Of a DNA stretch of 64,000 nt, positions 3,139 to 31,804 are shown piece by piece. The translations under genes and the position numbers were made by a program. Source of the DNA: Ulva prolifera. Taxonomy: Eukaryota > Chlorophyta > Ulvophyceae > Ulvales > Ulvaceae. Position 1 is the first letter of the stretch; every line of letters begins with the position of its first letter. The DNA lies in contig CM041196.1 of NCBI GenBank assembly GCA_023078555.1, positions 3,224,001 to 3,288,000 on the forward strand, written 5' to 3'. Below the pieces are notes generated by a model. It was not told the origin of the DNA and made no database searches. It worked only from the letters and a program-made list of their open reading frames with translations.

Positions 3139-5073
3139 ATGTCCCTCTCGTCTTGGTTTGCTGTCCTCGCGGCCGTCTCTGCGCCCCTCGTGGCCACTGC
3201 ACACAGTGTGACCGACACACACGCAGTGGCTTCTGGGGCATCCGAGCAGCTCGTAGGTGACAGCTTTGCCGTCGGGTCCTCTCTCGAATTGGACGAGCTC
3301 ACAACTGCCGTGCTCGAATGGGCACATGAAGAGGATGCCGAAGAGGAGTCGCAGCATGGGCGGGCCCTGCTGAAGAGCAGTCGCCGCAAGCGCGGCGTTG
3401 CCCGGGCCGCTGCTAAGGCACCTGCAAAAAAGAAGTCCGCCTCTAAGAAGAAGAAGTCATCTCCGAAGAAGAAGAAGTCGTCTCCGAAGAAGAAGAAGTC
3501 ATCATCGAAGAAGAAGAAGTCATCGTCGAAGAAGAAGAAATCCGCGCCAAAGAAGAAGCAGTCGGCGGTGGCCGGTGCCCGCCGATTCGGTGGTGGCGGT
3601 GGTGGCGGTGGTGGCAAGACGATCGGCAAGTCCAAGCTAGCTCACGGGACATTCTTCTCCGGCATGGGCACCCCAACAGGCGGCTGCGGAGTGCCCCCTA
3701 GCAAGGCGTATGACGACCGGGGCACCCCGCTGCCGTTCGTTGCGCTCAACACCAACTCGGAGTTCGCGAACGGAAACAACTGCGGCCGCTGGATCGAAAT
3801 CACGCTCGGCCAGAACTGCGAAGGCGGCGGCAACTCTGCCTGGAGCATTTGCAATGGTGGACGTGCGCTGCCTCTCATTTCATTGCATGGGGCCCATGCC
3901 CTGTGCTGATAAGAGTCCGTGCAGTGCATGTAGTGCATCGAGACAACCACATTGACATGAATCTGTGCGTCACACTGTCTGCACCTCCCTGTACCCCGTG
4001 GTTCTGATCAGGACCAGATGGTGTGTATCTGCAATATGTCATCTGTGCACGCCTCATCTGGGTCCATGCTGTGCTGTGTTTTGGCGTGTGTCGGAGAGGC
4101 ATTGGCCCAGGAGCTCATGCTGGTGGTGTCCTCCAGGCTGGATGTCGGACAGCATGACCGGAAACACGATCTATGGCTACGTGATGGACTCGTGCGCCGA
4201 TGACAACTTCTGGTGCCAGAACGACGTCAACCATCTCGACATCTCTAAGTCGTACCTCACTGCGATGGGATATGTGAGCAAGTGGAACGGCCGCAAGGTG
4301 TCCTGGAAGTACATGACGGATACCCCATCAGGGTTCGCTCCTGCCCCCCCATTCCCTGCCTGTGCCTCTTGTGCTGACTGCTTGTGGTGTGAAGTCTGTA
4401 CCTCTGCAGCTTGGGAATTTCAGGATCCCTCTTACGCATGTTGGTATCATGCATGTGAAAGGCAGCTGTTGTTGCTGCCCTCAGCCAGAGTGTGTTGTCA
4501 GTGTGTGTGGTAGTACATTCCATAGTCATCTCTGTTCATCCACCTGAGTCAGCTGCCAGTGCAGCCCTTCGCATTTGCACTGCATGCTTCAAGTTTTATG
4601 CCGCTTCCTGCTTCTTCATGCACACACCCGCCCATCTTCTGTCCTTGAAATACTCCCAGTCCGACTGATGTAATACAGCAGTTTGATTCTTGAGTCTGGA
4701 ACTGAGGTGCAGGTGGGTTCAGTCAGACCCCAAGTTCATGTGGAAGTCCGGCAGCAAGTGGATCAAGAACGGTAAGGGCTTCTATGCGTCCATCATCATC
4801 CACAACACCAGCAACGGCATTGGCGGCGTGCAGCAGCAGGTTGCCGGCAAGTGGGTCAACATCCAGCCCCTGAACCACCTCGGCAACATGTGGGTGCTCC
4901 AAAAGCCCAGTGATAACGAGTACCGCCTGCCGAACGGTGGCACTGGCCAGTACATCAAGGTCCGTGTGATGGACAAGGATGGCGAATACTACGGCTCGTA
5001 CAGTCTCAAGTGGATGTGCGGTGGCACTGGGGCGTGCTCCACTGAAGTCGACGCTCCCACGATGAAGATGTAA
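3139..5073 (+). CDS. Secreted expansin-like protein 1, Lys/Ser-rich stalk (3 exons)
   Basis: Exons 3139-3862, 4137-4332 and 4713-5073 encode 426 aa. Residues 1-21 look like a signal peptide. Residues 22-80 are acidic and end in a GRALL motif. Residues 96-141 are repeated KKKKSSP-type units, followed by nine glycines. From about residue 170 comes a double-psi beta-barrel: GTFFSGMGTPTGGCGVPP, VALNT, CGRWIEI, then in exon 2 YGYVMDSC, WC and HLDIS, which matches the expansin domain-1 HFD region. Exon 3 resembles the expansin D2/CBM63 beta-sandwich (KWVNIQPL, RVMDKDG). Expansins loosen polysaccharide walls without hydrolysis; wall loosening or binding at the cell surface is inferred. Intron phases 1 and 2 and the domain order match the paralogues at 17.6 and 24.8 kb. 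The polycation stalk is not a classical expansin feature. The family call is good; the substrate is unknown. Confidence 0.85.
3424..3563 (+). repeat. In-frame lysine/serine codon repeat
   Basis: This is an AAG/TCN-rich tandem run encoding KKKK-SS-(S/P) units within exon 1 of expansin-like gene 1. Its complement reads as a long Phe/Asp/Ser open frame, which is an antisense artefact. A similar run sits at the same place in the second paralogue (about 17860-17990). Confidence 0.8.
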
Positions 5074-5837
5074 GACCCGCACGTGCGCTGACCGGACGGC
5101 TGGACAGTGTACGGGGACGATGTCATGCCACTCCCCCAGCTTTTGGGCACCGATGGCGATGCTCAAAGAAACGGTTCATGTGGGTTTATGACATCTGGCC
5201 AGAGTGGTCGGCAGAGCTCACAAGTGGGTGAAGGATTTGACAGGAGCTGAGTGTGGACACGATTTTGCGAGCGTGATGCATGCCAGTGGGCAGACAGCGC
5301 TGTTGCGTGGGCCTGTGTTTTTGGGGCAGGTGTGTTGGGGAGGGGGTACAGTCCTTGAGGAAGAATGGGCATGCTATGATGGTTGTTGTGCCTCACGACC
5401 AGTCCGCCAGCCAGAAGCGGGTGCGTAAGAGCTCGGGCAGGTGGTCGGTGCGGGGTGGTTCTGCGACGGATGCATGCTTATGTTGAACTCAATCATCGAG
5501 GCGAATTTTATATTTGTCTGGGACAGTAGATGCGTTGCTGCGCATGGGCGCAGGTGATGCTAATGTTTCACCAGCTAAAGCGGTGGGTTCTTGTGGCCAA
5601 GCTTGCTGTGAAAGGGAAGTATGGCGGGTGATGCTATACTATTTCGTACTGCCGACGCATTTTTGTGCGTTTTGGCAAGACAGAATTAGCGTAGCTGATT
5701 ATGCATTCGAGATATGTTGCCATTCCACGTTCAGTCGGACACTTCAGTTCGATGTGTAGCAGGAATTGGTCGTTTTTATTCCATTGTAACACCTCGCTTG
5801 GTGGGTGATCATGAAAACATGTGCACACATGTGCACA

Positions 5838-5840
<3 letters not shown>

Positions 5841-5930
<90 letters not shown>
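5841..5930. repeat. (CA)n microsatellite
   Basis: An almost perfect AC dinucleotide run of about 90 bp, preceded by imperfect GTGCACAC units from about 5820. Open frames through it (Cys-Val or His-Thr repeats) are artefacts. Confidence 0.97.
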
Positions 5931-5932
<2 letters not shown>

Positions 5933-8900
5933 CCTAGAAAGTGTCTAGCATCCTGTGGCGCAAAGTCTCAGCAACTTGGCGTGAAGGACAGCAGGCCCAC
6001 CCACCTCACTCGGTTTGCTCTTCTCGCAGTCACTGCCACCCAACGGCACATTGTCCTGTTTGCTCGGAGTTGTCTATGTCCTCTCAAGGATGCTCCAGGT
6101 AACTCCAGAGTTGCTTTGCTTCTTCTTTGCCCTATGCCTGCCACACTCCTTTCGCAAACGAGCACACATTACCAGCTCGCAAGGCCGGTACGCATTTGCA
6201 AGACTGCACAGGCCACTGCCACAAATGTGGGAGGTACTAACCTCGGGGATTGCTCATGCATGTACCATATGGAGGTGTCTGTGCGGCCCAGCCGCAGCTG
6301 CATCTAATGCCATGGGCCGCTTGTGCACGCGGCAGGCAGAGCAGCAGCAGCCTGCGGCGCCGCCTCCGATGATGCTTCAACCACCTCTGCAGCGCTGAAA
6401 GTTCCAGCCTGTGCGAGGGAGATCCCGTGTGCTAGTCTGGTGTGTGCGCAGATCAGACGCCACTGCTACACAGCGCCCCGATGCACGCACAGCACGCCCA
6501 GCACGCCCAGCGGCAGCATACGGAAGGGGTCGAAGTGCCGGCGCACGATCTCCGGCCAGAGGGCCGGTACACGCACGCACAGCTGCAGGAAATCAGCGGC
6601 TACTTCTGCCTCATTCGGTTCATTTCAGAGCTGGCATGTTGTGTGTCTGCAACGAGGCTGTGGACTGTTCTACGAGGACAAGCCCGGGGATGCTGACAGC
6701 ACCACAGGGACCACACGCAGCACAAGAACACGAACGACCACGCCGTGAATGGAATGCGTGGACCGTCCTTGTAGCGCCGCCATTGCGCCCCATGGGGCCA
6801 GCATCCTCTCGGTGCTGGAGTGTGCCTGACGGCCAGTCCTGGATGTTCATGCATATACTGGAGCACCGCCACGGCCTAGTCAACCTGTAAAGAGACTCGG
6901 TGACTCGATGTACCCAGCTGTGCCCCTTCGCGACATTGACAACTCCGGACAGCAGGCACCACATCAGCCGCAGGGGTCGACCACCTGTGCCGGTTCGGAT
7001 GTCCAGCTGCAGGTAAGCCATCGTGCGCTCGGTGTGAATTGCTAGGTGTGAATTAATTGAGACATGATCATTCTGTCACAGGGTAACACGCGCTGCTCAC
7101 TTCGCAGCGCCGCTCGTGTATACGTCAGTTCACTGCCGGTGCCAGGGGGCAGCGCCGCCTCCTGGGGGCCCCAGTGCTGCAGTGCTGGGGTGTCCACATG
7201 GCGCACAAATGCGGCGCTGCAGCCGCAGCACAACGCACGGAGCCACTGGTGCACGCTCTGCAGGCACCACACCACCTGCATGCATCCATACATGCGTGCA
7301 TGCATGTCTGCGCAGCCGCACCCGAGCCGCACTCTCGGCCGCTGGATTGTTGTGGCCGGCGTTGTTGTGTGCAAGCACGGGACCGCAGGATTACACAGCA
7401 ATGTGCGTGCTGGCAACCGGGTTGGATGGAAATTAATGCACTGGCGCTACTGGGCGCGCGGCTGCATGTGACCACAGCATGCATGTGGCTGCGCGGAGCT
7501 CCCAGACATCTCCGCCTACGTGGCAGTCCATTGATCAATTGATCTGCAGACATGTCCGATACGCCGCTGACTTACCATGCGTTTTGTTAAAGTGCGTTCT
7601 GCGACACCACCATGGCTGCACGCATTTCTCAAGTGCTGTGATCGCTACTGGGCTAGCTGCGCCGTACGACGGTGCTGCTTATGCTGCCTCCTCGTTATGG
7701 CAGGCTGACAGCTGCACAGGATCACAGCGGCATGCATTGCTGTCACGCGAGCTCAGCAGGCTCAGCAGGCTCAGCAGGCTCAGCTGCTCTTGCAACCTCC
7801 CCACACGTCCTCGTACACACAGACAGATTTGCTTTACGTGCGACATCACCACCTCGCCACATCATCCGGCCGCCTGGGCCTGCGCATGCATATGACCACA
7901 GCATGCATGTGGCTGTCTGATGCGGGTCCGCGGACACCTGCCAGCCTCCTGCCAGCCTCGAGTTGGACTGTCCGCGACGTGCTGTGAGCTCAGCCGACTA
8001 GTCGGCAGTCTTACACCTCGGGAGAGCTAGCCAGCTAGCCGAGAGGATGTTTGTGCAGTACGTTGGCAAAGGCAGCTGGCTGAGGGGTTGGGCGTAGAGA
8101 TGCACGCAGCGCTGATGAGTACGTGTTGAGCGTTGGCATCATGGCTGCTTGAGGTGGCCAGGAGTGGTGCAGGTGGCAGGAGGTGCTGTGCAGGGTTATG
8201 CAGCAGTGTTGGCACGCCTTGCAGCCTTGCAGCATGTTCGCGGCTACCATCCAGAAATCAGCCCTGAACATTCGGAAGTGAGATTGGCGATCGGGCGCGT
8301 GACCTTTGTGGCAACCGACACGCTTGCACTAGGGGAGATCTGCTTCCCACAACCTTACTCCACTCTGCAGTGCCTGGCACAAGAGGCTGTGGCCAGACTC
8401 TGATTTCAAAGTTTGTGATACGAGGACAGACTCATCTCGGCATAGCAGCTGCCTGCAGGCAGCTGCTGTGCTCAGAAATATTCTTACTGTCCACAAAATC
8501 AGTTTCTTGCCAAAGGAGCCAGCCTACAGTCTACTACCATCAGACTTGATTCACTCTTCCACAGCTGCACAGCCCACAGGCATCTCAGCACACCCTAGGG
8601 CAAGATGCCATGTTACAAACCAAACAAAACAAACATAGCCACTGGTTCCTCTGGCAGCACAAGAGGTTCATAACAGAAGCACGCCAAGCTTGTTGCACAC
8701 TTTGATCAATGACTGTGGCAATCCGGTGATGTGACTGCTGCACCACAGGACAAGTTTGCATGAGAACCTGCAAAAGGGGCAGCCCCATATGACTCTATGC
8801 AGTTATCACCAGCTTACTCTTGTGCAAATCCACAGTCCAGGCTTGTGCCAGGCACAGATGCTGGAGAACATGACTCCCAACGGTGACAGCAGGTTCAGGC

Positions 8901-9661
8901 CTGAGATCTTGCCAGCGGGGTGTGAGGGCTTGTGAGGGCTGTATTGCCAGTGGGTTGTGAGGGCAATATTGCCAGTGGCACATTTGCAACAGCCCACCAA
9001 GCTTGCCCCGTGGCTCTGCTGTGTCCACTCAGGGAAATGCAGCAGCAGGCCATGCATCATCCCGCGCCCAGGCATCATGGCAATCACCTCAGCACCTCAG
9101 GACCAGGGAAGACACACTGAACGTGCACAAGTTACAGGTTAGTTGACTCTGCCAGCCCCGTGTGAGCAACAGTCCTGCAGCTGCGTTTCTGGTGTGCGCC
9201 CCCAGTGCCAGATCTGGGAGGCAATCAAATGATTCCTTATTCTATAGGTATACTTACATACATACATGCATAGGTTCGATTTGCGAGTGGCTTGCGAGAA
9301 ACGGCTTGACGAGAAACGGCTTGATGCCCCACCTGTGTAGAGGGCTGCAGGGGTGGGTGGCGGGTGCGCAGGTCTGCACCAGATCTGCACAGCTGTGGAA
9401 GCAGCTACAACTAGCAGCAACAGCAGCTGCTGCTGTGCTAGAACTCCATGGTGTGCCCCTGTGGGGGACAGGTGGTGCTTCCTGGCTGTCTGCTTGACCT
9501 TGACACAGTTGGCAGGGGTACCAGGTCACATCACAGATCCTGCACAGGGTTCACCATGGCAATCACACCAGTCACAGGTCCACAGCAGCTGCCACCTGAC
9601 CTCGGTTCCGATACATAAGACCCTTTCTGTGCTGTATGAAGCCTGCAGTGCTGCCTTCTCC

Positions 9662-9990
9662 AGGGGGGTCGGCACTCAGGCCTCATGCACGTCCAATTGA
9701 ACCGCGAGCAGCTCAGAACGCTCGAGACATCGCTGGGAACGTCTATAGACTCACAATAACCTTCTGAATGCTGCTGTATCTTTTGTTAAACTCGCTGGGC
9801 GAAATGGACCTTTGGCCCGAAATCCGTGTGCATGGCTGGGCGAAAAGCCCCATTGTGCCCAGCGAGCGCGAGAACGCGCCCAGCGGGACCGGAAGCATGC
9901 CCAATGGCCTCAGAACACCCTTATATGCCTGTAATGCATCCTGATGCGTTATAAATGGTCTATGTGTTGCTGCGGGCGGTACTAGTACAT
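9662..9990 (+). repeat. Left inverted-repeat arm of the transposon
   Basis: This arm pairs with the reverse complement of about 10920-11238. The outermost 44 bp are identical. Further in, the shared blocks are TATAGACTC, CAATAACCTTCTGAAT, repeated GCCCAGCG octamers and GATGGCCTCA/AATGGCCTCA. Divergence of the inner part implies the insertion is not very recent, or that the arms were never perfect. Confidence 0.85.
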
Positions 9991-10919
9991 GCTCTGCCAT
10001 GTTTGCTTCCCTTGGACACCATCGACCGCGTCGTTAGGAGCTACTACGCACAGAATAATTACCGGAGATAGTTGACATGGCTTTCCGGGTCTGGCGAGAC
10101 TGTTGCTTGCCCGATGTGGCTGGGGGGCAGCTTGGCTGCTGCAATTTGTACTCCACAGCGCTGGGCGTTGTCAACAGTTGATCACAACAGAGTCAAGCAC
10201 AGGTTCTACAGCACATCAGATTGCCATGTCCTGATAGCATGTGTGATACTTGTCCTTCCATCCAGCGTATTTGTGATGACCTGGTTGCATACATGTGTGA
10301 CTCTGTACCACTGGAAATCAGTGTATCGCCTTCGTCAACAGATCAGGCATGTTTAGGACCATGGCAGAGTCTTAAGGAGCATGGCAGACTGTCTCTGGTA
10401 ACACTGTGCGTGGATCTACTGCATGATGGTGTGGATTCAGGCGAACAATGACGTGCCTACGCAAGCCTTCCATTCTGTAGAATGGTGTTTGCTTGCAGAC
10501 CATGCTGATGATAGGCATGTACATTTCAAATTTTTTATTCTGATCGCTTTTGAAGAACATGTCTGGTCGGTGGTGCTGCTGTCCCTTCGATCTTAAGGTG
10601 CAAAGCTGCACTGCTATGCAGTGTAGCATGCTACACTGACTGACCCGGAGGTTCACTCAGTACCGTATGGGCAGGCACCAAAGCGTGGGTAGTCTCACAA
10701 CAATGCCATCTTAAGATGAAGTTCACAACACTGGAGCTGCTGCGATGTTTTGAGCATCTCAGCAAGGAGCACGTCGCCCACCTGCTCTTTGATCACCACA
10801 CAAGACAGCTGCATATGTGCCAATAGTCCGGTAAGCTAGTCGAAATCATGGTAATCGATGGGATGTTTCCCGGTAGTATGGACGCCCGCCATGACGCTGG
10901 TCGGACGCGAACACCGCAC

Positions 10920-11238
10920 GGTGACACAAGTCGAGGTGGCAGGCAGTTGAACATCAGGGCAACATATTATGGTGTTTTTCGAGTGCTCTCTGCCCACTGA
11001 GCACGATGGGCATACGCTGGGCACCGTTTGAGGCCATCCGAGGCGTCGCTGGGCAAAACGGGCTTTTTGGTCCAAAAATCCCGGTTTCGCTGGGCGTTTT
11101 CACCTGTTTCGCCCACACTACATACAATCGATTCAGAAGGTTATTGCGAGTCTATAGGACTTTTCCTTGTGTTCTGGAGCGCTCTGAGGTGCTTGCGGTT
11201 CAATTGGACGTGCATGAGGCCTGAGTGCCGACCCCCCT
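10920..11238 (-). repeat. Right inverted-repeat arm of the transposon
   Basis: Read on the minus strand, this arm begins with the same 44 bp as the left arm and carries three CGCTGGGC octamers (near 11018, 11047 and 11090 on the plus strand). It ends exactly at the second copy of the CCTTCTCC target duplication. Confidence 0.85.
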
Positions 11239-14200
11239 CCTTCTCCTTCAGCTTGTGCATCATACCAGCCAACCATCCAGTCATGGCAGATCATACAGTT
11301 GCTGTGGCAAATGCAGTGAAGTGGCTGCTATAGCGCTGTAAGGCCACATCACCGAATTTGCCACAGTTGACCATATATATGAATACAGTTGCCACAGCAA
11401 GCAGCTGCAGCTGCAGAAACAGAGAGCTGCAAGCTGTGAAGCTGCCACACACCTGTGGTGTTGAATTGCTCATCCAGCAGAGGGAAGTTGCTGCTCTTTG
11501 GTGAATGTGGCTTGACGTTGGGGGAGGTGAGGTGCCTACATGCACGCAGCTGGAAACATGTTGCCAGGATGTTATGGTGCCTGAAATGTCTGTAAAAATG
11601 TTTGGTGACACGATGCAAACACCTTGGCAAGGCACATCATGCAGGGGGTGGGGGTGAACAGGAACAGGAACACTGTGCACAGCAGTGCTGGTGCAAACCA
11701 TCTGCAATTGCAGCAGGTCTGCTGTGAGCTGTCTGCCAGCAGTGGCAATGCCGGAGAACACTATCTCAGAGGACGGTCTGCCAGCAATGCCAGATTGCAA
11801 TGTCTGGGCATGTCAAGAGGGGGGGTGCCGTTGTGCCATGCCAGGCCAGCTCCAGGAAGGTACCTGTTGTAATTATTAGTTACCTGATTAGGTGGGTGCA
11901 GTGCTTGAAGCAGACCACACCTATAGCCCCACATGGGGCTGATGAGGTGCTGAGGAAGTGGCAAGCAGCATGAAACGGGCGGAAACGCCTCAGGTTAGAA
12001 TAGCCCAGTGACTCTGGGCTCAGTCAGCCGCGTCCCGAAGAGGGACGACAAAACGAAACACAGTAAAGCAAAGTAAATCTGAATTTGGACAGTGGAGAGA
12101 AACTGCTGAGACTAGACCAGTAAGCAATTGCTTAAAAAATTCTTCAAACATCAGCAACGGCACTGGTACCTTAATGTAATTACCCTCCCCCTTCTCCCCC
12201 CTCCCCCCCTCCTGCAGGGTGTACATCGGAATTTTTGCAGGGCAAACACTGGGCCAGAGAGTGGCAGCATGCTCGCACAGGATCCCTCGAGGTGGATGGG
12301 TCCTAAGCTTGGGGCAGGGGCCGAGATGCTCATGATTCGTTACCCATGTGTACAGAAAAAGCCAGAGACGCAGAGTGGTAGCACCGCAGGAAGCAGGACA
12401 CAAACTGGAGCACCACACACGCTCGTGCTGTGCCTCGAGGCTCGATCGTCGACCTGGCGGTGCTACCGGCCCCTCCGGCTTTGTCCTTGTAACTCACACG
12501 CTGGTGCTGTGCTGTGCTGTGTGACGCTCGTGCGGTGTGTTACAAGGGCCGTGATTGGGCCAGCAGACAGCCACATCAGGTCTCAACAATAAATTGATAA
12601 GAGTAAAGCACGATGCTGAATTATAATGCCGTTGAGCACCACCTAATAGTCCAGAGTTCTCAAAGTCCGTTGAAGACATGGCCGTGTAGATCATCCTGAT
12701 TAAGGTGATTTGAATGCATCCTTTACGTATTTATCAGTGCACTATTTGTTGTCTCTCGAACGTCCCACGAACGAACTCGAGTTCGAATTTGGCTATTGTT
12801 TATATTGCAAGGCATGCGTACGACTATTAGGCGTGAAAGAATACACGGCGTTGACCAGGGCTGTCAGTCCTTCAGATAGCTTCACATAGCTACCCGGCAA
12901 GGCAGCCACTGAATTCGATCGACGGATGTTGTTGTCGGCATGGGTGCCAGGTGACGTGATCCTGGTCAAATCAAAACTGTCTCGACACGTCGTGAGCGTA
13001 GCTGACAAGGCATCACATGGTCCGCCAGCGCGCCATTCGGCGGTTGATGACGAGCGCCTTGGACCCCGTGACATGCTGCGCGCATACATCAATGCATGAG
13101 TCATGAACCTCGCTCCTCTCTAAAGTTACCTCCGTCAGCCGGACCCACGTGACCGACACCGTCACGCCTCGTGCTTTACGACGCCAGCATGACCACCGGG
13201 GTTCCATGCCATGCAGTTGCACTGCCATGGCGCTGCAGCTGCGCTGGCGCTCGCGGCGGTCCAATAAATAAAACGCATTCAGAGGGTACACATTGAACTT
13301 GTTTCTTGCTGTGCTGTTTGGACATTGATAGGCGCTGTGCGACCTGGTGGGTGGGGACAACGTTGGCACGAGCCTGCAGCGGGGCCTGCAAATTGGCTAC
13401 AATCTATGACAATGTGCTTGCCAAAGTGAAGCCGCTCCACTGCCTGACACGCTGGTCGTTGAGCATATGTAGTTGCTGCGGTGCCGGGGAGATTGCCGTG
13501 TTGCCGTGTTGATGCAGTGGCCCGTGCCCCTCCGCCAGGCCGCATGTTTGCTGCAACACAGCTCCGTTGCAACGAAGAAACAACAATGCCAGTATGTGGA
13601 CGTTGGCTGGGAGGTCAGTCTATAACTGTGTTTGCGTTTCAAAAGCTCTGCAGATGCTAACACTGATGTTGACCTCGCCCGCGGCTCTGCAGCAGCGCTG
13701 GACACACTAAATGAACCACAAATTCATTATTGTTTTACTGCTGGCCACATCCCTGTACTGTAGTGGAACCGCCGCAAATTGCACCGCAAAGGCAACTGGT
13801 TTGCTCCGAGTAGCCGCGCGTGACAATTCTGATCGTCGCTCTAATACAACATCGCCGCAGTGCTATGACAATCAACGATATGATACATAACGTTTAATAT
13901 TTCCTTTGCGTTTAGCCCTGATTATTACGCAACAGCTGGGCAGGTCTTTGCAGTGGTTTACTGCCAACATCCGAAGACAAGACAGTGCTGGCAAGCAAGC
14001 ACGTCCACACTACGCTAAACAAAAATTGAATCAAAGTCTGCATTGCTGCTCAGCTGTAAGCCAGCCAAGGCAGCTCGCAGAGACAAGCTTTTGGCGAAAG
14101 GCACTTTGGTTTGCAGTCCGCGCTGCCCAACATCGCAGGCATGCACGCATCATAGCGCTGCCTCTTTGAAAGCTTTTCAAGCTCTTTGTAGTGGAACGCC

Positions 14201-15139
14201 ATACAGCAGTCGTTCGTCTTCACGTTGCATGGCTGGGCAGTTGCGGTGACTGCTCGTGGCAGCCGTCATATCCACCTACAGGTGGTCGTCATATGCGTGT
14301 AACACGCCCACCCACGTGGGGTGGTGTGACCTCACGGAGGTATACCTAAAAATGACCACAACCTCGACTCATGAGGCAGGCAGTCCGTATTCTGTCGATC
14401 TTGCCCGTCGGATCGGGAAGTGTTGACGTGTGTTTGCACTGTGGCTTGGATTCAGGTTATTGATCCGTGCATCTCTGACCGAGACGCAACGGACAGTCGA
14501 GCTGTAGCATGCTATAGCAGTGGGTGATAGAACACAGCGCGAGGCTGCCGGTAGTAGGCTGGTACTAAACTCAACTCATATGTACGTGAACTCCACGTCT
14601 ACAATGGTCGCACAGAGCGCAGGCTGCACCTGCGGCATAAGGATGCGAACAACGAGATGTGTCAACAAGCTAGGGCTATCGCGAAGCATGGCAACTAGCA
14701 ACGCACCGATACAGAAAATCCATATTCGCACAAGTAGGTTTGCAATGCAAGACGCGGGCCCGATTGCGCTCGTGGGCAGAAGAGCATCGCCTGTGATTGC
14801 AGGTGGCCAAGCAAACCATGTTTACTCTGCTGACTTATCAAGCTTGGACTCATGTTACCCCCAGAATGATTGAAATTAGGAAGTATCGCGTTTGTCATTC
14901 CTCGAGAGTACTGAGCGGTCTCTGCTGTTCGGATGCTATTCGTTTCACAACCACAAATGCCCCAGGTAGCACAAGCAGACAGTAACGCCCGGCGGTGGCA
15001 TGGCCACACACACACGCCACCAATGAACCAAAAACAACCTCATGGTCGTTGACAAGTCCGTTCCAGCGGTTGCTGCAGCAGCTTGTGCAATTGCCCGGGT
15101 TTGCAGCGCGATTGAGCGGGAGGCCTCGCGGCAGCGTTC

Positions 15140-17355: not shown

Positions 17356-17357
<2 letters not shown>

Positions 17358-17391
<34 letters not shown>
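17358..17391. repeat. Poly-C tract, 34 bp
   Basis: An uninterrupted C run on the plus strand, about 225 bp upstream of the start codon of expansin-like gene 2, probably in its promoter or 5' leader. The complementary G run could form a G-quadruplex. Confidence 0.95.
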
Positions 17392-17616
17392 ATACCCGCT
17401 TCACCCGCCCTTTTGTCCGTCGTGAGCTTCAAGAACTCGTAGCACTCCAACACTCGCTACCAGCAGATAGAGTAACAATTGTGACACTGCCTCACAGCCT
17501 CCCCACTTTCAAGTATGGCGTCGCTCATTGCACATACTGTGCCCATCCCGGCCGCTGCATGCAGGGACTCCGCAACTGCCGTGTTTTCACAACACGTCTG
17601 ACAGTGACACACAACG

Positions 17617-18323
17617 ATGCCGTCTCTGATTTCCGCCCTCACCGCCGCGGCAGCGCTCGTTGCTGCGGCGCTAGCCCCAGCCACCGCCGCCGACCCCACC
17701 ACACAACTGCGCTCCGCCGGCGACGTCCTCTCCACAGACTCCCTCCAGGTACTCCCAGAGGGCATGCCGGAGGCCCTCACGCTGGCTGGCGGCGATGATG
17801 GGGAGGTGAGCGTCGGCCGTGGCCTGCTGCGGTCGAAACGCGGGCGTGGAAGCTCTAAGGCCAGCAGGAAGAAGAAGAAGTCTTCACCAAAGAAAAAGAA
17901 GAAGTCATCTAAGAAGAAGTCGTCATCCAAGAAGAAGAAGTCATCGAAGAAGAAGTCGTCGAAGAAGAAGTCTGCACCGAAAAAGAAGACTCAGTTCCGG
18001 CAGCAGGCCTCGGGGGTGAAGGCCGAGGTCCGGTTCAGCAGCGGTGGCAAGAAGTACTCCGTTACGAGCAAGTCGCATGAAGGCCACGGCACGCACTTTG
18101 CGGCGATGGGCAAGCCGTACGCGGGCTGCGGCGTGCCGCCACACCGCGCGTACGACGACAACGGCAACCCGCTGCCATGGGTTGCGCTCAACACCAACGC
18201 GGAGTTTGAGAATGGTATCAACTGCGGCCGCTGGATCGAGATCAAGCTCGGCCAGAACTGCGTCGGCGCGGGCAACGCGCAGTGGAGCGTTTGCAACGGC
18301 GGCAGTGCGTACCCCTCACCCCG

Positions 18324-18354
<31 letters not shown>

Positions 18355-19502
18355 CCCCGCCCCCCCCCCCCCCCCCCGCTTCGTCATGTGAACTGTTGTG
18401 ATGTGCTCGATGCGCAGCATGACTGAGTCGTGGCCGGCAAGCTTGCCCCCTTTGCTGTGGGTCATGCGTCGCTTGCGTTCATGGTTGCATGCTGCTGCAC
18501 ACTTTTCACCATGCTCTGTGCCATTCCACATCGCCACGCTCGTCCATGTAGCCACATGCCTCGAGCGCTTTCTTCAGCCGCACCTTCATACGTCACCGAG
18601 GGGAGTGTGTCAGTCAGTGCTTGCGTTCAGACTGGGAGTCGGACGACCGCACAGGCGAGACAATGTACGGCTACGTGATGGACCACTGCCCTGACCAGAA
18701 CTTCTGGTGCCAGAACGATGCCTACCACCTCGACATCTCGCGCCCGTACCTCACCGGCATGGGCCTCACCGGCCCGCACATCTGGAACGGCCGCAAGGTG
18801 CACTGGAGTTACATCGATGATGTCCCCGGCGGGTATGCATGCCCTCCGTTCCTTGCCCCGCGCCTACCTCCCGGGGCTGCATCCCAGACAGTGCTTCAAA
18901 GTTCTGTGTGCGAATATTCGTCTGGTTGCCCGCAGCTCCTTGTGAGTCGTACAGCAGACCTGCACAACATGTCGTGTGATAGAGCTGCCGGGGCGCTGCG
19001 TGATGTACATGCCTGTGACGTTTGGTCCAATGTGGGCGGTGTGTCTGACCAGGCTTGTGGTTGACCTACGCGTCTCGGTCTCTGGTAAGGTACAGCAAAG
19101 CAGGGGTGTGTGATGCCAGCGCTGACAGGTGACGGCGGGTGCAGGTGGAAGATGTCGAACCTGAAGTTCATGTGGCTCAAATCGTCCAACTGGATTCCGA
19201 AGGGGCACGGCTTCTTCGGCGGCCTCATCTGCTACAACATGCCCAATGGCATCTCCCGGATGTCCCAGAAGATCGGCAACAACTGGGTGCCCGTGCGGCC
19301 CCTCTTCCACCTCCGCAACCAATGGATCCTGCAGAAGCCCTCGAACTACGTCTCTGCTCCCAATGGCGGACAAGGCCAGGAGATTCACATCGAGGTGTGG
19401 GACGCGCAAGGTAACTCGTATGGCAAGTATGCGGTGGAGTGGGGGTGTGGCACCGGCAGCTGCTGGGATGACACCGACGCGAATTCGCGGAAGATCGGGT
19501 AA
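17617..19502 (+). CDS. Secreted expansin-like protein 2, Lys/Ser-rich stalk (3 exons)
   Basis: Exons 17617-18304, 18631-18832 and 19145-19502 give 415 aa. A signal peptide (about 1-25) is followed by an acidic segment, a GRGLLRSKRG motif, and about 45 residues of KKKKSS-type repeats. The double-psi beta-barrel follows (GTHFAAMGKPYAGCGVPP, VALNT, CGRWIEI, YGYVMDHC, WC, HLDIS). Exon 3 carries the expansin D2-like domain (KFMWLKSSNW, NNWVPVRPL, IEVWDAQGNSYGKY). Splice phases 1 and 2 and flanking residues match the other two paralogues exactly, so these are tandem duplicates. Intron 1 contains long poly-C runs starting 16 bp after the donor GTGCGT. A role in wall or matrix polysaccharide loosening is inferred from the family. 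It is most similar in layout to the 3.1-kb copy. Confidence 0.85.
18321..18378. repeat. Intronic poly-C tract
   Basis: C runs interrupted by single G residues, starting 16 bp downstream of the intron-1 donor (18305) of expansin-like gene 2. Read through, they give polyproline in one frame and are not coding in the spliced model. Confidence 0.93.
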
Positions 19503-22500
19503 ACTGCGCCAGAGTTGCTCCCCGTTGCTGTCCCTCGGCCACCTGCGTGGCTCTTTGCGCAAGCGATCGGGCTGGGGTAGGTGTGGGTCGCAGGGACAGG
19601 TGGAGGCGGCGTGTGGGTCACAGGGTCATCTGGAGCAGAGAGCCACCGGGGGGGGCCCGCGACGCAGCCTGTGTTTATTTGCGATTTTGGCGCAGATGAC
19701 GAAGATGCTTTGGTAGCGTGGACACGCCTCTTTGCCACCCCGGCGCAGTCGCACTTTCTCGCCCGCGCATGCAGCTCACGGCGTGTGTGTGTGTGGTATG
19801 TGTTGAGCAACTGGCACGCCTGTTGGGCACTGCGAGGGGGAGTGTGGCTGGAGGGGTGGCTGGGGTTAGATCCAAGCTGCTATGATGCTGGATGCATGGT
19901 GATGAAGCATGTGCGGGTCCAGCGGATGTGGCTGGTGCGCCGGGTGTGCCGTGAATAATGGTGGTGATGATGGCGGTGCTTGATGCCAATTATGCCATTT
20001 TCCGTGGTGTGGGCTGTTGTTCACGGAGCCTCCGAGATCACTGTCCCCGCGTTCATCAAGGTGTGAGGCCGGAGGGGGGTGTGTGTGTGTGTGTGTGAGC
20101 CGTCCCACCGTAGGGGTGGGCCTTTGGGAATGCCAGTGGGCATGGCGGCAGGGCATGGATGAAGCTGGAAATGCTGTGTCCATTGAAAGTAGATTATTAA
20201 GGTGATGAGTGATTTATGAGGTGCCTAGCGTGGCGAAGGTGTGCATGCTGGATGAAGGCAGGCTGTGGCCGAGGCATCTGACTGAGCGATGCGGGCGCTG
20301 CCTGGTGACGTCCCTTGTGATACCACAGCCTACTCTGGCTTTTTAGAAGAACCTATTTTTCTTGTTAGACAGTCAGTACGACGCTCAGGGAGAATTTGCA
20401 TCTCCACTGTAACATCTCACCCGGCTACTCTGGGATGCCCCGGCACGCACCTGTTGGCCCATGTTGTTTGTACTGTGCAGCAGGACTGTTGCAACGTCAA
20501 TTGGGACGAATAACCTGTACCTAGGACGACTCGACCAACAGGATGCGTGTAGACTGTGTGGTGCAGCCAGGGTCCATAAGACATTGGGGATGCTGAGCAC
20601 TCCTTTGCCTGGAAAATCCTGGTGGTATGACGCATGGTGATATGGCTTGGATTGCCGGAGTGGACCAGAGCCCCAAGGCAAAAGCATCACCTGGCACTGT
20701 TGGCAAGTTTGAGGGCAGCTGCCAGGTTGACCAGGGTGTGTCATGAACGGGGCATCCTCACAAACACAGGATCCCAGTGTCCGGGTGCGCTGGGCTACGA
20801 GTGCACCAAGAGATGTTTCTATGATGCGATGATGGTCCATTGCTGACGTCTGGGTGTAACTGGGGAGCATGTGCAGTGTGCTGGATATCCACACATGAAC
20901 CATCTGGCTTGATAGATGGTGTGTCTGTTGGTTGTACGCAGCCCCACGAGCTCCGCGGGAGCGCCAGGCGCGATCTCCTAATGGCCTCTGCCGTCGGGCT
21001 GCTTGGTGCTTGCATAGGTGGTGGCTGCGTGGCATGTACATCTAGAACTTAACAATTGTGGTGGGGCCAATGCAGCCCTTGCGTGGCCTGTTGCAGGCTT
21101 TGGATGAATCGGGGCTGCGCGACGGTGAGAATGCCGCGTTGCCTGATGTGTGTGGAGAGGGTTCACGATTGGGGGTCTGGGGCTGCACACCTCCGGAGTC
21201 AGGCCGTCCGGCTGGGCACTGTTGAGTTCGGCCGCCTCGCCGCGGGCGCGGCTGTGGTGCCGCTTGGGAGCGGCTGTGGGTGGGTGCGTACGCGTGCTAC
21301 AAGGACAAAATTCGACGAGGCTGGTAAGTGTTTATGGGTGGTCATGCAGGTGGGTTTGCATGTGTGGTCAGGTGTGTGAGTTGGGGTGTTTGTGTGCGTC
21401 AGTTCGGGTGCCGCCCTCGGTTTTGGGCTTGCTGCTATGTACTGGCATCGTTGATGTTGTATGCGTGAGTTCCGGTGCGATGGGTGTCTTGTTAGTGGGG
21501 ATACGGGATCGCTTTGCTTACTGCCGGCTGTGGACGGCTGCTTATTCTGCGCGGAATGATGGCCCCGTTCTTGAGCTGCTCGCTAGTCCTGCGGTGCTAC
21601 CTGCCTCTCGGTCTCGTCCTTGTAAAACATGAATTTTCGTAACACACGATTCAAAATTGGTTGCGCAACAGTTTGAAAACAGGGTGACGTCCTTACATTC
21701 TCTAGGCGGTATGCACACATCATGATGATCGTCTGAAACAAGCTTAGCAGCTCTGCAGCACAGCTGGCGAGCCTGAATTCATACGGAGCCTCCGCTAAGT
21801 CGTACTCACAAGATCACTCGATGAACAAGCGCTCGGTGAGTACTACTCAACAGGCCCAAGCGAGGGAGCTGAGAACTCTGGTAGGACGACCAGAAAATTG
21901 ATTCGCGCATCCGCCGATGGTGGGAGTCGCCACCGCATCGTGCGCAGACAGTGTGCACAATTTTCAAGGAGAAAAGCTATACTGACGACCTCGCGATCGC
22001 AGATGCGTCCATGTGCATCTCGAGATAGGCAATTCTCAGCGTGGCACCATGGACAGAGTGCTGGCGAGGTGTACAGCTAGCTCGCAGCGGCATCAGTTCA
22101 CCGCGGCCTAGGCTTGTGACAATTGGCGAGAGCTGTGCCGGCGAGGCTGCTACCGGCGATGGCCGGCTTCGCTTGCACGCAGCTATCTCCATCAGCGCTC
22201 TATCGAGGCATCATTCATGAGTACAGCATGACCTCTGGCACGTACTCAGGCTAATCAGCATATAATGTTAGGATAGCGCTGAGACAAGCTGACATGCGGT
22301 GATCTCACAAATTTTCGTTTGGTGATTAATCATGACTACATAGACGTGGGCGTCACTGACTGGTGCTGGCAGCCACACAGCGTCCCTGTCACCACTTGCA
22401 AGGTGCATCGCCGTGCCTATCAGTAAGGTCAATGAGTCATGATGCCCCAAGAATCAGCGGCCTGGCGATGTGTTGATGCATGCTGTGTGCAACTTGACCA

Positions 22501-24783
22501 TGCAGCTGCTACACAAAGCACATGGCAACTTCAGCAGCCCAAAGATGGATGCCTAAACTGCAAGTGAGGTTGAACAAGCTAACCTGTATAAGAGATACAT
22601 TGTGACTCTTGCACCCGAACGTCACATGGATTGACAGATGTTTTCGACACAAAACATCCTCAATATCCAGTCTAACATTGAGCCTAATTACTGACAGACG
22701 CAGCTGACGACTGCACGTGTACATGTGGCATGGCTGGTGCTTGTGCTTGCTCAAAAACACACAGACACGCAGCAACATTGACCTGCTGCAGCTGCATGAA
22801 TCGATGTGCAATCGCCGTATGTCCAGCACAGAAGCAGTAGCTTGCGTGACTGGCGTGTGTGTGAGTGCATGCTGGTGGCCTCACATGGGTGAGCACTCAA
22901 AACCACTTACAGCAAACAGTCCTGCTGTGAGTCAACATGTATCCTCAACCAGACCATCGGCTACTGACCTGAGCAGCTGTTCTGTAATGGTAGAGCCAAG
23001 CTGTAGCTTGGGCACTGACCCATTGCCAGCGTCAACCGTCATATGGCTGACCTCGCGAATTCCCCCGCCGTCTCGAGGAGACTGATTTTGGACAATTCAG
23101 TCTCATGGGGAAATGCTGTTCGACCACCTGCGGCCTAGATCAAAATATAATAACACAGAGCGCGCAGAGGATTCGTATCTCACTGATCCTCCGAGTCTCA
23201 GCCGATCTACGGCTGCTTGCGATGCATTTCGAATAGTGGAACGGGTGTTCAAGATCCCAACTATACAGGTGCGGCCCCGCCCCCGCTCCGACCGAGCCCC
23301 GCACGCGCACGCATATACTCCTTGGTATGGTATGAAGTGCAAAGTATAAAGAGACGCGAGGCTTGGTCTCGTTGCTACAAGGCCTGAGTTCAGAGCACAG
23401 CCGAGGTGTCGCCGATGGCAACGTTGCGTCCTCGGTGTGTTCGCCGTGGCGAGGGCCTTTGACGATCGAGGGCACGGCCGCAGCGGGCCGGCAAACTTAC
23501 AGCCGTGCTCCGGATCGCGCGACGGTCGCGTGCCAGATCTGTCGACCTGGCAATGCTGGGCCGCATGTGCCGCCGATCACACAACGTCTTCAACCTTGCA
23601 AGGACATGTCGCCCCGAGACTGATGTCGGCGTCACGTCTCCCTGGCTAGGGCCATTGCGCATGCCGTGCTCGAAACAGCTATCTCGCCCGCACAGGTTAT
23701 TATGATGCATCCCGGCCGGCCCAGATCTCGCGCGTGCATATGCCGGTGGCAAATTGTGAATTGACTAGTACTCAGCACGCCGGCACCGTGACTCGGCGCC
23801 GGACGCGTAGCGGAGTTGAACATACATGCTGGGTGACTAATCTGGCTTATTGATCTCTACAGCACGGGGCGCAGTACCACCATGGGTGATGCACCAGGTA
23901 CAGGTTCATAGAAATTGCTTATATGATGCATCAGGGCACAAATTCCAGCATGCATAGTGTGCATGCAAGGCTAGTAAGCATGAGCAGAGCCAATTGCAAG
24001 CCAGCTGACAGGCCTAGGCCTGTAGTGTGAGAAAAAAAGTGGTGCTCGTGCCAAGAGAACATCCCCTTAAAATGTGCTGGCCAATAGAGTGTTGGTGGCA
24101 TGCTTGCACCAAGGTGCTTGAAGTTTCACACAGGCACTCAGATCTAGACAGTCAGACAGTCAGACATTAGTCAGATCGCGACCCTCAGACAACCTGTGCA
24201 CAAGGCCTCTGTGTTGCATGCAAGGACCAAGCCAGCAGGGCAGGTAGCATGCAGGGCCCAAACAGGGGGACCACCATCACCCCAGACACACCACAACACA
24301 CGCCACACAGACCAGCACCTGTACCGCCTCACACCAACACCGCCCATGCATATGTGCGCCAACGTCCACACGCCAAGGCTTCTGTGTGGTCCTGCTTGCG
24401 ATATGTCTGAAGGCTTCAGCCTGAAGCTGAGCAGGGTGCACTTACGTCTTTCGGTGCATGCCATGAACAGCGTTCTCTGGAGTCGTGCATGTCTGGTTGC
24501 GAAACGGCTACATCATATCAGCCAGCTGAGCAAGTCCAGATTGGCTGCACCTTTGCTGACACGTTGGGTCATGTGCAGGCAGTTCCTGGAGGAGAAAGCG
24601 CACCTCGGCGTACCCCCCCAGGGCCTACGTAAGTACCTGCAACCAGCCCATATATATATACCCCCTGCTAGCTACCGCCGCGCACAGCAGCACTCACCTC
24701 CCAGTGACCTTGAAGGCACCCCGACAGCGGATCCAGACGCACGTGTCTGTGGCACCCCCTCACGTGCACACGCAGCGGCAGTC
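19503..24783. other. Intergenic region between expansin-like genes 2 and 3
   Basis: No gene was recognised. There is a short GT run at 20078-20098 and a CAGT-type run at 24148-24170. The stretch near 20520-20600 reads ACRLCG in one frame, like retroelement C-terminal zinc motifs, but downstream residues do not fit. The region 21050-21630 is open on the plus strand without recognisable motifs. Confidence 0.45.
24651..24660 (+). promoter_or_regulatory. TATA-like element upstream of expansin-like gene 3
   Basis: A run of five TA dinucleotides lies 124 bp before the chosen ATG (24784) in otherwise GC-rich DNA. It could be a TATA box with a leader of roughly 90 bases. This is suggested by position and composition only. 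Confidence 0.35.
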
Positions 24784-27665
24784 ATGCATCAGGCAGCCAT
24801 CGTCGGCACGGCGCTCCTCGCGAGCGCCGCCGGAGCGGCCGCCCAAGCCACCAGCCGCGCGTTGCTCACAGAGCAAACCGTGCACTGTGGCGACGTCGAG
24901 ACCGCGAACTACGGCCGCCTCTGCGGCGGGAAGTTCCGCGACACGCTGTGCTGCCCCGGAGAGCAGCAGTGCTACATCTCGAACGAGTGGACGTGGCGCT
25001 GCGCCGACGCGGCGGACTCGATCGGCCGCGAGGTCGCCTTCCTGCAGGAGGGCCCTGTGAAGAACATCCCGCGTGACCCGAGCCGCGAGCGGCGCACGCG
25101 CGTGGTGAAGGAGCGTGTGCGGCGCGTGCGCGAGCGCACGCGGCGCGTCGCGTCGCCGCGGGAAGTCGAGCAGGCAGAAGCGATCGTCGCGGCAGACCCG
25201 GACTTTGACGCTGCGGCGGACCAGATGATTGATTACGAGGGGCCGGGGACTGTGGACTACCTGAATCTGATGGAGGTAGGGGAGGTGGAGGACGTGATTG
25301 AGGAGGAGGTGGGGTCAGATGTGGACGAAGAGGAGGATGCGGACTACGATGAGGATTATGACGGGGATTACGAGGAGGACGAGCTGGGGGATGACCAGGG
25401 CGACGACCAGGGGGATGATCAGGGTGATGAGAGCGGGGATTACGGGGATTATGAGGATTACGAGGAGGAGGCCGGTGGAGATGAGCCGCCATCAGCGACG
25501 GGGGTTGTGGACGTGGGGCCGGACGGCCCGAAGGTGACGGAGGAGACGACCGGGGATGGCACTGTGGATGTGACGGTCACGCCGATTGAGCCTGAGCCAC
25601 AGCCGGAACCACAGCCGGAGCCACAGCCTGAGCCTGAGCCACAACCTGAGCCGCAGCCTGAGCCACAGCCTGAGCCGGAGCCACAACCGGAGCCAGAAGC
25701 ATCGCCAACGCCAGCAGGGGGCACTGGGAAGCGGACCGGTGGCACATTTGATGCGACGGGCACGTACTTCACGGCCATCGGGACCCCGTTCTCTGGCTGC
25801 GGCGTGCCACCAGACAAGCTCAAGGACAAGAACGGCAAGGCGCTTCCGTTTGTGGCGCTGAACCAGCTGAAGGGCACCGACTCGATGGAGCCGTCGTACC
25901 CGATCCCAGCGCAACACACGGGGCCCTTTGAGATGGGCCGCAACTGTGGCCGCTGGGTGGAGATCCAGCTTGGTAAGAACTGTGTTGGCTCCGGGAACAG
26001 CGACTGGGAGGTCTGCCTGGGCAACAGTGCGCCCCCGCCCCCTTGATTCAGGTGCCTGCGTGAAGGTGTCTGCATCTGAAAGCAGAGGCACCTTCACGCA
26101 GGCATTTGAATCAGTCCGCTTGATCATGTTGGTGTGTCAGAGTTTAAGGGCAGATGCTGTCCTCATAGCGTACAAGGTTCACCACCAAGCCCGCACACGG
26201 CTGCATGTGTGCATGTGTTCCCATCATCTGGCATGCTTGATGTGGTTGGAAATGAATCGAGCTTTGAAGCGCCCTGCGTGTGCCACTACAGCTGTGAGCG
26301 CCCTGATGCAGTTTATGGCAATCTGTGTACCTGGTACAGCCTCACAAATCATGCTTCAATGGACTCGCCATCCGCAGCAAGCTGCAGTGGTGAAATGTGG
26401 TGAGAATTCTCATTAATGCCGGGCTCATCCGCTGCGAGGTTTGTGAAGTGCTGTGTGAAGCCGACTGCGGCTGAGGTGGCACGGGCACACCTTGCATGTG
26501 CGCGCGGCCCATCCGGGTGCCACATGCATGCTGTACATGTGCAGACTACGTGGCGGACCCGTCGACCGGGGAGGTGCTGTACGGTTACGTCGCGGACTCG
26601 TGCGCCGACAAGAACTGGTGGTGCCGCCGCGACACCCACCACCTCGACATCAGCGCATCGTACCTCGACTCCATGGGCCTCATGCATGGCTGGAACGGCC
26701 GGCAGCTTACGTGGAGCTACATGACTGGACCGCCCTCAGGGTGCGCCTCCTCTGCTGCTGTGGCACCTCCGCCACATGACAGATTTACGACAGATCTACC
26801 ACGGCTGCCGGCCCTCTTGTGCCCTGTGATCGTACATGTAGCTGTATATAGTATTGGTGATTGGCAGTGAATTCGTTCTGGGGCGGCTAGCACTGCCAGT
26901 CTGGCCCCGGGGGCAATGCCCGCCGCCCCTCACAGCCTTTCAGATGCATCTCAAGGTTATGTGAAGCATGCCTGAGCAGAGGTAGTTTTGCTATCTGGTT
27001 GGTGCCTTACGTGACCGACCCCCACAAGGAACGCCGCCCGTACACATGCATGCTCGGCGCGAGCCTTGAGGCTCTTCCTCATGCGCCAGTACACACACAG
27101 GCACAGGCGTTGACCTGCACAGACCTCATGCTTCTGTCGCATGCACTCACGTCTTGGTCAACTTCTTGCATGTACACCATATGCGAAGCCACAGATGTGT
27201 ATACTGTAGATAGTATCTATAGAGCACTTGCACTATAAACCTCGTGGCATCGCAGCCACGGCGCATGGCCTCTTGCCATGCCCCGCCCCAGGCACTGAGC
27301 TCCGTCCGCGATTCAGGTACTCGATGGGCGACCTCGAGTTCATGGTCGCCAGCGGCAGCAAGTGGATCAAGGGCGGCTACGGCTTCTGGGTGTCGCTGAT
27401 TGTGTACAACGTGCCGAACGGCATCGGCGGCGTCGAACAGCGCGTCGGCGATGGCTGGACGGCCGTCGACGACGTCAACTGGCTCGGCCAGCAGTGGAGT
27501 CTCGCGCAGCCCGCCGACTACCGCTCTGCCGACGGCGTCCGTGCCTTTGAGGTCCGCGTCACCGACGTCGACGGCAAGCCGTACGGCACGTACCGTGTCG
27601 ACTTCCCGTGCCCGGAGGACGGCGCGTGCGGCGGCAACACCGACGCAACGTCCACGCGGATGTAG
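24784..27665 (+). CDS. Secreted expansin-like protein 3 with Cys-rich head and acidic/PEPQ stalk (3 exons)
   Basis: Exons 24784-26026, 26545-26740 and 27317-27665 give 595 aa. The open frame extends upstream, but this ATG begins a signal peptide ([20 protein letters not shown]). Residues 24-28 read SRALL. Cysteines at 35, 47, 56, 57, 63 and 73 form a small cysteine-rich module I cannot name. Residues 100-122 are Arg-rich, about 165-240 are strongly acidic (Asp/Glu/Gly/Tyr), and about 269-308 are Pro-Glu-Pro-Gln repeats. From residue 320 the expansin-like barrel begins ([40 protein letters not shown]), with an insert of about 20 residues after VALN. Exon 3 is the D2-like domain ([35 protein letters not shown]). 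Intron phases equal those of the other two genes. The polyanionic stalk contrasts with their polycationic ones. Confidence 0.83.
25583..25707 (+). repeat. In-frame Pro-Glu-Pro-Gln repeat
   Basis: Tandem CCNGARCCNCAR-type units in exon 1 of expansin-like gene 3 encode about 40 residues of [10 protein letters not shown]. This is probably an extended, charged spacer between the acidic region and the expansin module. Confidence 0.9.
26044..26113. repeat. Perfect-length intronic hairpin
   Basis: Arms 26044-26068 and 26089-26113 are 25 nt each and complementary except for two positions. The inner bases (TCTGC at 26069-26073, GCAGA at 26082-26086) extend the stem. It lies in intron 1 of expansin-like gene 3, starting 17 bases after the last base of exon 1, so it would place a strong stem next to the 5' splice site in the pre-mRNA. 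Confidence 0.88.

Positions 27666-31769: not shown

Positions 31770-31804
<35 letters not shown>

Follow-up and report, generated by a model that had tools for sequence, protein, structure and literature searches.

Three genes for putatively secreted proteins with charged stalks

The window analyzed here, i.e. the whole stretch of 64,000 nucleotides at positions 3,224,001 to 3,288,000 of Ulva prolifera contig CM041196.1 (G000:C1:3224001-3288000), carries on its plus strand three expansin-like genes, g1 (3139-5073), g2 (17617-19502) and g3 (24784-27665), with predicted products of 426, 415 and 595 amino acids (aa). All three share one layout: after a hydrophobic leader comes a stalk of low complexity, and then a core of two domains. 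The gene models were built from exons of the six-frame display, spliced by GT-AG consensus sites and homology; all six introns are of the GT...AG type, and in each gene a phase 1 intron precedes a phase 2 intron at aligned protein positions. The spliced models thus confirm a sequence-only reading of the window, made earlier, which had proposed three paralogues with a common leader, core and intron phases 1 and 2. Its description of the genes as a tandem holds for their strand and less well for their spacing, with gaps of ~12.5 kb (g1-g2) and ~5.3 kb (g2-g3). Since leader, stalk and the start of the barrel are spanned by one uninterrupted open reading frame (ORF) in each gene (3112-3909 in g1, 17608-18426 in g2 and 24148-26046 in g3), the stalk exon and the barrel exon belong to a single gene, as that reading had supposed. 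The leaders resemble signal peptides by hydropathy (Kyte-Doolittle 12-residue maxima 1.95-2.32), which suggests that g1-g3 are secreted.

Exon 1 of g1 (3139..3862, spliced ORF; own-genome match L045) encodes the leader (residues 1-21), an acidic pro-segment, the motif R-A-L-L (residue 75), a Lys/Ser stalk and the start of the barrel; repeat and codon analysis places its Lys-rich repeat, composed of KKKKSSP/KKKKSSS units, at 3430..3563. Exon 2 (4137..4332; spliced ORF, alignment) covers the remainder of the first domain (NFWCQND..HLDIS), and exon 3 (4713..5073) the predicted second expansin domain, which is CBM63-like. In g2, exon 1 (17617..18304, spliced ORF) likewise comprises leader, acidic pro-segment, R-G-L-L (residue 68), Lys/Ser stalk with a Lys-rich repeat (17868..17988, by the same repeat and codon analysis) and barrel start, followed by exon 2 (18631..18832, spliced ORF) and exon 3 with the predicted second domain (19145..19502; spliced ORF, alignment). 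The first exon of g3 (24784..26026, spliced ORF) is more complex: the leader and R-A-L-L (residue 25) are followed by a six-Cys head, an Arg-rich patch, an Asp/Glu-rich stalk, PEPQ repeats and the barrel start, with acidic repeats at 25318..25430 and the PEPQ repeats at 25587..25698, both from a repeat scan. Exon 2 of g3 lies at 26545..26740 (spliced ORF) and exon 3, with the predicted second domain, at 27317..27665 (spliced ORF, alignment).

Fold assignment of the core

Compared with the g1 core, identity amounts to 58% in g2 and 51% in g3. Pfam yielded no DPBB_1 or Expansin_C match in g1-g3 and NCBIfam none for their cores; the thresholds of the curated signatures PF03330, PF01357 and NF041144 were not reached. 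A CBM49 match on the second domain of g1 (E 0.054) fell under the cut-off and was discarded. A scan of 84,980 prokaryote species, each represented by one genome, gave 100 pattern matches, among which 43 loci (L001-L043) encode relatives of the core, 26-34% identical and in 42 cases aligned over at least 200 of 258 query residues. They come from Streptomyces, Cellulomonas, Dactylosporangium, Cytophagales, Fibrobacterota, Myxococcota and others, including many cellulolytic genera. We left out L038, which has a stop in the trimmed stretch, and 20 rows at least 85% identical to a kept row; the remaining 22 non-redundant bacterial rows and g1-g3 form alignment A3. The profile derived from A3 matched nothing but expansins in the PDB at E<0.001 (5/5). 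Two structures labelled 'cellulose binding protein' in the profile search, 4jcw and 4js7, appear as Clavibacter expansin in the Foldseek listing.

Structure prediction points the same way. The AlphaFold2 model of the relative L001 (22 rows) has a pLDDT of 93, and all 10 chains (8 entries) retrieved with it by Foldseek at E<=0.001 are expansins, with both domains covered. A further alignment (A4; 24 rows, 3 from the window and 21 bacterial) omits also the truncated L035. Exon 3 of g1, modelled with 21 bacterial rows in the alignment, reached a pLDDT of 87; the five best Foldseek matches all belong to the expansins, and three reach E<=0.001 (2bh0, E 9.6e-5). The first domain of the window proteins, which is split by an intron, was assigned by sequence alignment to the modelled L001 only. 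By these alignments and predicted structures, the core of g1-g3 is two-domain and expansin-like at the level of the fold; in expansins a six-stranded double-psi barrel precedes an Ig-like CBM63. The expansin-like second domain of the sequence-only reading is upheld by both models, and its double-psi barrel by that of L001 through the alignment. As to sequence profiles, g1-g3 stay below every curated threshold tried, and in the PDB the A3 profile recognizes only expansins at E<0.001.

The motif H-L-D-I-S is invariant in g1-g3; its Asp is nearly invariant in A3 and replaced by Gly in L043 and in a paralogue on contig C8 described below. In expansins a conserved Asp lies in an HFD/LDLS motif. In EXLX1 this residue is D82 (PMC3995998). 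In a HMMER alignment, which considers sequence only, the RWW of EXLX1 falls on a bacterial [YW]W column, where the Ulva rows have FY, FF and FW after a short insertion; the planar aromatic triad of the CBM63 domain in EXLX1 is W125, W126 and Y157.

Among known systems, the L001 model shares its two-domain fold with EXLX1/YoaJ (2bh0, 3d30; NF041144) and with the expansins of Clavibacter (4jcw, 4js7), Xanthomonas (9ms4) and Streptomyces (9ms5), over 248-276 alignment columns and at 15-20% identity in structure alignments; the bacterial expansins likewise match the second-domain sequence profile. The Ulva proteins differ from them by a longer core (258-271 versus ~200-209 aa), by their charged N-terminal stalks and by scores below the NF041144 and Pfam cut-offs. 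The plant and green-algal EXPA/EXPB proteins (PF03330 + PF01357) also have the same two-domain fold (cotton GhEXLA1, E 1e-5), but unlike them g1-g3 match Pfam in neither domain. L001-L043 belong to the same core family as g1-g3, aligned over both domains, and some carry appended targeting parts. Eight of the 43 were scanned for additions, and CBM2 (three cases), dockerin I (one) or a secretion sorting tail were recognized; seven of the eight match expansin_EXLX1 (NF041144; E 3e-5 to 7e-12), all beneath the curated cut-off. Appended binding parts on expansins (CBM2, GH5 and others) have been described before (PMC11040781). As to mobile elements, 32 pattern matches in viral_contigs included no confirmed relative and the plasmid search found none, and a viral or plasmid origin was rejected on these grounds.

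The family in the Ulva genome

Proteins encoded elsewhere in the genome agree with an Ulva, most probably U. prolifera. A light-harvesting exon (L058) has chlorophyll a/b-binding proteins as its best match, which places the genome in the green lineage. Mature plastocyanin, joined from two exons (L072 and L073), equals PDB 7pcy, the protein of Enteromorpha prolifera (a name that NCBI lists under Ulva prolifera), at 98 of 98 residues; the following hit, 1iuz from Ulva pertusa, has several differences. Protein searches of the genome (88.9 Mb, 44 contigs) retrieved the trio and two dispersed relatives, from C8:702441 onward (L053) and from C6:2679464 onward (L055-L057), which brings the family to at least five genes. 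Exons for the first and the second domain are present in both relatives. Their first exons encode short N-termini with neither a Lys-rich nor an acidic stalk (60-residue net charge between -9 and +4), and their intron positions differ, the first exons reading, by eye, through the intron 1 site of the trio. Pfam matched neither the joined C6 exons nor the first-domain piece from C8 (207 aa). An exon-by-exon search of the genome found no PF03330 or PF01357 exon; as PF01357 was detected in none of the control genomes either, its absence is unproven.

In a tree of 27 rows (5 Ulva and 22 bacterial), the five Ulva rows lie on one side of a branch supported by 98/99, apart from all 22 bacterial rows. 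The trio forms one clade (100/97), which supports its paralogy as read from the sequence, and g1 and g2 are sisters (100/96); the C8 paralogue is a long branch, and the program warns that long branches meet there. Published surveys report one expansin each in U. compressa and U. mutabilis (PMC9266709), and expansins in Volvox and Coccomyxa among five chlorophytes that do not include Ulva (PMC11547041). The Pfam models tried did not detect the five or more expansin-like genes counted here.

Oppositely charged stalks

The stalks have computed net charges of +26 (g1, 147 aa), +29 (g2, 132 aa) and -59 (g3, 304 aa), and the most charged 60-residue windows reach +32 in g1 and g2 and -35 in g3, so that the two polycations and the one polyanion with PEPQ repeats noted on first inspection are real; of the KKKKSS repeats noted alongside, those of g1 are regular and those of g2 less so. 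The two Lys stalks share start and end motifs (KKKKSSPKKKK ... KSAPKKK) and align at the DNA level (score 103, against a maximum of 48 over 100 shuffles) although the cores are only 58% identical. Their Ser codons use all four TCN forms, and among the four regular repeat units of g1, codon changes summed over pairs come to 8 that are synonymous and 4 that are not. The TCN variety fits an old Lys repeat maintained at the protein level.

No DNA homology was detected between the stalk of g3 and those of g1 and g2. The Lys-repeat DNA (AAG runs; 3382-3642 and 17820-18090), read one base on, encodes Glu-rich runs, and a single frameshift in it would flip the charge of the stalk. An origin of the g3 stalk as a frameshifted Lys stalk was examined and rejected, as the g1-g3 score of 18 was equalled or exceeded in 163 of 200 codon-shuffles and the g2-g3 score of 21 in 78 of 200. 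Within residues 21-125 of g3 (24844-25158), the six-Cys head has the pattern C-x11-C-x8-CC-x5-C-x9-C and is followed by the Arg-rich patch; Pfam has no family for the two, and a genome search with the N-terminal 173 residues of g3 yielded no second copy. The corresponding protein search with the g1 stalk gave nine candidates and one match, g1 itself; since it missed even g2, the search copes poorly with low-complexity sequence and is of little informative value. Pfam matches on the stalks (PARP, TAF4 and others) were composition matches under the cut-offs and were dropped.

In the bacterial relatives the 60-residue extremes over 43 ORFs, some with unsure starts, are +17 and -22, the former in a stretch whose start is unsure; none of the ORFs is as strongly charged as the stalks in Ulva. 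A weaker parallel is offered by L023 and L041, both from Cellulomonas, in which the core is followed by an acidic Pro/Thr/Glu/Asp linker with net charges of -22 and -21 per 60 residues.

A candidate Site-1 protease site

Each of the three proteins contains exactly one R-x-L-L, located in the stalk (RALL in g1, RGLL in g2, RALL in g3), and this is the one motif found to be common to their otherwise unalignable N-termini. Shuffles of the respective stalks produce it with probabilities of 0.018, 0.024 and 0.012, and it occurs anywhere in two of the 43 bacterial ORFs. Site-1 protease (S1P) recognizes sites of the type R-x-[hydrophobic]-[L]. The U. prolifera genome encodes an S1P-like protease (C-terminal domain MBTPS1_4th, E 1e-44, C1:7632800-7633711, with an S8 catalytic exon ~1 kb off on the same strand), and the R-x-L-L of g1-g3, which resembles such a site, may be cut. 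In plants, S1P/SBT6.1 trims secreted precursors in the Golgi (at RRLR and RRAL in CLEL6) and is also required for pectin methylesterases (PMC7162652). The charges before and after the motif are -12/+38 in g1, -6/+35 in g2 and +1/-60 in g3. Because the site separates the acidic pro-segment from the Lys stalk in g1 and g2, a cut would unmask the polycation after transit.

All three stalks also contain basic R-X-[KR]-R sites, three of them in g3, with charges before and after of -7/+33 (g1), -3/+32 (g2) and +6/-65 (g3, last of the three sites). When the g3 segment is shuffled, such a site is expected in 39% of cases (1.8% for g1 and 2.6% for g2), and a search limited by introns found no furin-type P domain (P_proprotein exon) in the genome; for both reasons we ranked furin-type processing below S1P.

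Charge as a proposed address label

We regard it as about an even chance (roughly 0.5) that one expansin-type module is used here on three secreted Ulva wall proteins, with the long charged tail serving as an address label. The wall of Ulva contains cellulose, xyloglucan, glucuronan and sulfated ulvan (PMC10762512), and the influence of net charge on binding has been described for two bacterial expansins: BsEXLX1, which is basic, attaches to cellulose too but favours acidic matrix polymers, and PcExl1, which is acidic, has a preference for cellulose, is excluded from the acidic matrix and adsorbs to Avicel more strongly when salt is high (PMC3995998). In that pair of proteins, as in our proposal, charge away from the binding face steers the module between acidic matrix and cellulose; there the charge sits on the surface of folded domains, in proteins of separate species, and in Ulva on low-complexity tails of paralogues within one genome.

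According to this proposal, S1P would trim the precursors in the Golgi at R-x-L-L, which in g1 and g2 would remove the acidic pro-segment (-12 and -6) that may shield the Lys stalk (+38 and +35 afterwards) in transit. Outside the cell, the expansin core would dock on the neutral polymers, cellulose and xyloglucan, and the Lys stalks of g1 and g2 would bind the anionic ulvan/glucuronan phase multivalently and firmly enough for the salt of seawater, thereby tethering or concentrating the loosening module at the interface of fibre and matrix. With its charge of about -60, the Pro-rich acidic stalk of g3 would be repelled by the anionic phase, or perhaps coordinate Ca2+/Mg2+, and would send the same module to matrix-poor cellulose. 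The full version of this scheme, a charge-addressed set that arose after duplication, with a polycationic tail directing the module to the phase of sulfated ulvan, a polyanionic one directing it to the cellulose phase and counter-charged pro-segments on the cationic pair cut by S1P, is put forward tentatively, with the odds rather against it. If it is true, a marine wall targets loosening despite seawater salt by charged tails that replace the CBMs appended by bacteria.

Several observations weigh against the address-label proposal. A profile of the three Ulva cores alone finds no match in the PDB, and the link to expansins therefore runs through the bacterial rows. The Foldseek matches of L001, though clear by E-value, are loose (TM 0.48-0.56 relative to query length, and rmsd 4.9-5.8 across the two domains), and with g1 exon 3 non-expansin chains start at E 7e-3. 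The constraint on the core is moderate, as dN/dS among g1-g3 is 0.43-0.63. The R-x-L-L motif was spotted after the fact and judged against shuffles of its own stalks only, with g1 and g2 not independent; in g3 it stands right behind the leader, where cutting frees 8 residues only, and it is missing from the first exons of the C8 and C6 paralogues. The basic sites, too, were noticed after the fact. Finally, 10 mM CaCl2 removes >90% of the wall binding of the basic BsEXLX1 (PMC3995998), and as seawater is saltier than that condition, a charge tether must rely on multivalency. We consider this the strongest objection to a weak electrostatic tether in seawater, to which a long multivalent tail would be a natural answer.

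Or perhaps the stalks merely serve as spacers, or consist of low-complexity sequence that drifts and binds nothing in particular, their charge difference being accidental? The tandem repeats in the stalk DNA, the lack of detectable homology between the stalk of g3 and those of g1 and g2, the moderate dN/dS of the core and the acidic linkers in two of 43 bacterial relatives would all agree with that. But the Lys stalk outlasted the split of g1 and g2 with its start and end motifs retained, the extremes of charge in g1-g3 (+32/-35 per 60 residues) exceed the +17/-22 at most seen in the bacterial ORFs, and genome searches with the g1 stalk and with the g3 N-terminus turned up no further copies, the former carrying little weight given that it missed g2; on balance we find this explanation unlikely, if worth keeping in mind. 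Somewhat less probable still, in our opinion, is the proposal of the sequence-only reading that the oppositely charged stalks, Lys-rich in g1 and g2 and acidic in g3, co-assemble electrostatically; they would bind each other and form a coacervate or layer that bears expansin heads. Large opposite charges (+26, +29, -59) on a common core and neighbouring genes, which make co-secretion plausible, speak for it; but the Lys stalks would also be claimed by the abundant anionic ulvan, the salt of seawater is generally expected to screen such complexes, and the stalks are of unmatched length (132-147 aa Lys versus 304 aa acidic). Nor is co-assembly needed, since polyanion to which the Lys stalks could bind is plentiful in the wall as it is, and since expansin net charge, according to the published comparison (PMC3995998), shifts binding between acidic matrix and cellulose. 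The scale or mineralising matrix suggested, next to a wall, as its setting is not supported: the Ulva wall consists of cellulose and anionic ulvan/glucuronan, and nothing seen here hints at scales or minerals.

The bacterial origin of all relatives found (in a prokaryote collection), many of them from cellulolytic taxa and some with CBM2 or dockerin, could also indicate a nutritional or lytic helper for cellulose degradation, acquired from bacteria, instead of a protein of wall growth. We think this very improbable, because the host is a photosynthetic seaweed with a cellulose wall of its own, the five Ulva rows form one clade apart from the 22 bacterial ones and the trio has spliceosomal introns. 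Marginally fainter is the prospect that the Lys stalk is a product for defence or processing, i.e. that freed cationic peptides hit microbes at the wall or that the basic runs are cut repeatedly. The Lys-rich repeats and the R-X-[KR]-R sites in all three stalks would suit such a role; against it, the furin-type P domain was not found in the intron-limited genome search, the repeats consist nearly entirely of Lys, Ser, Pro and Ala and have no hydrophobic face, and the acidic paralogue g3 would be left unexplained.

Returning to charge as an address label, the module itself is known in kind, and what appears to be new is that paralogous expansin modules of a single genome bear low-complexity stalks of opposite charge. 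A search of open-access literature, limited to titles and the starts of abstracts, found no expansin with such charged stalks, which is weak evidence of absence. The role of expansins and other wall proteins in green algae has been posed as an open question (PMC10762512), and the three charged-tail genes hint at a way in which sulfated polysaccharide could be located by a wall protein in seawater.

Other features of the window

Further exons in the window match known families: on the minus strand APC5 (ANAPC5; 39437-40018), an ABC transporter (ABC_tran and ABC_membrane; 52429-56187) and, barely over the cut-off, Methyltransf_16 (62866-63567), and on the plus strand the FSH1 serine hydrolase (44814-45326). 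Long poly-C runs occur at 17358-17391, 18319-18377 (inside intron 1 of g2) and 31770-31803, and a long CA run at 5834-5930. Two direct repeats look recent, with 97% matches each (82 bp x2, 53631-53797; 39 bp x2, 51290-51367). The G+C content of the window is 57.7%, in line with the 57.2-57.3% reported for two Ulva genomes (PMC9266709).

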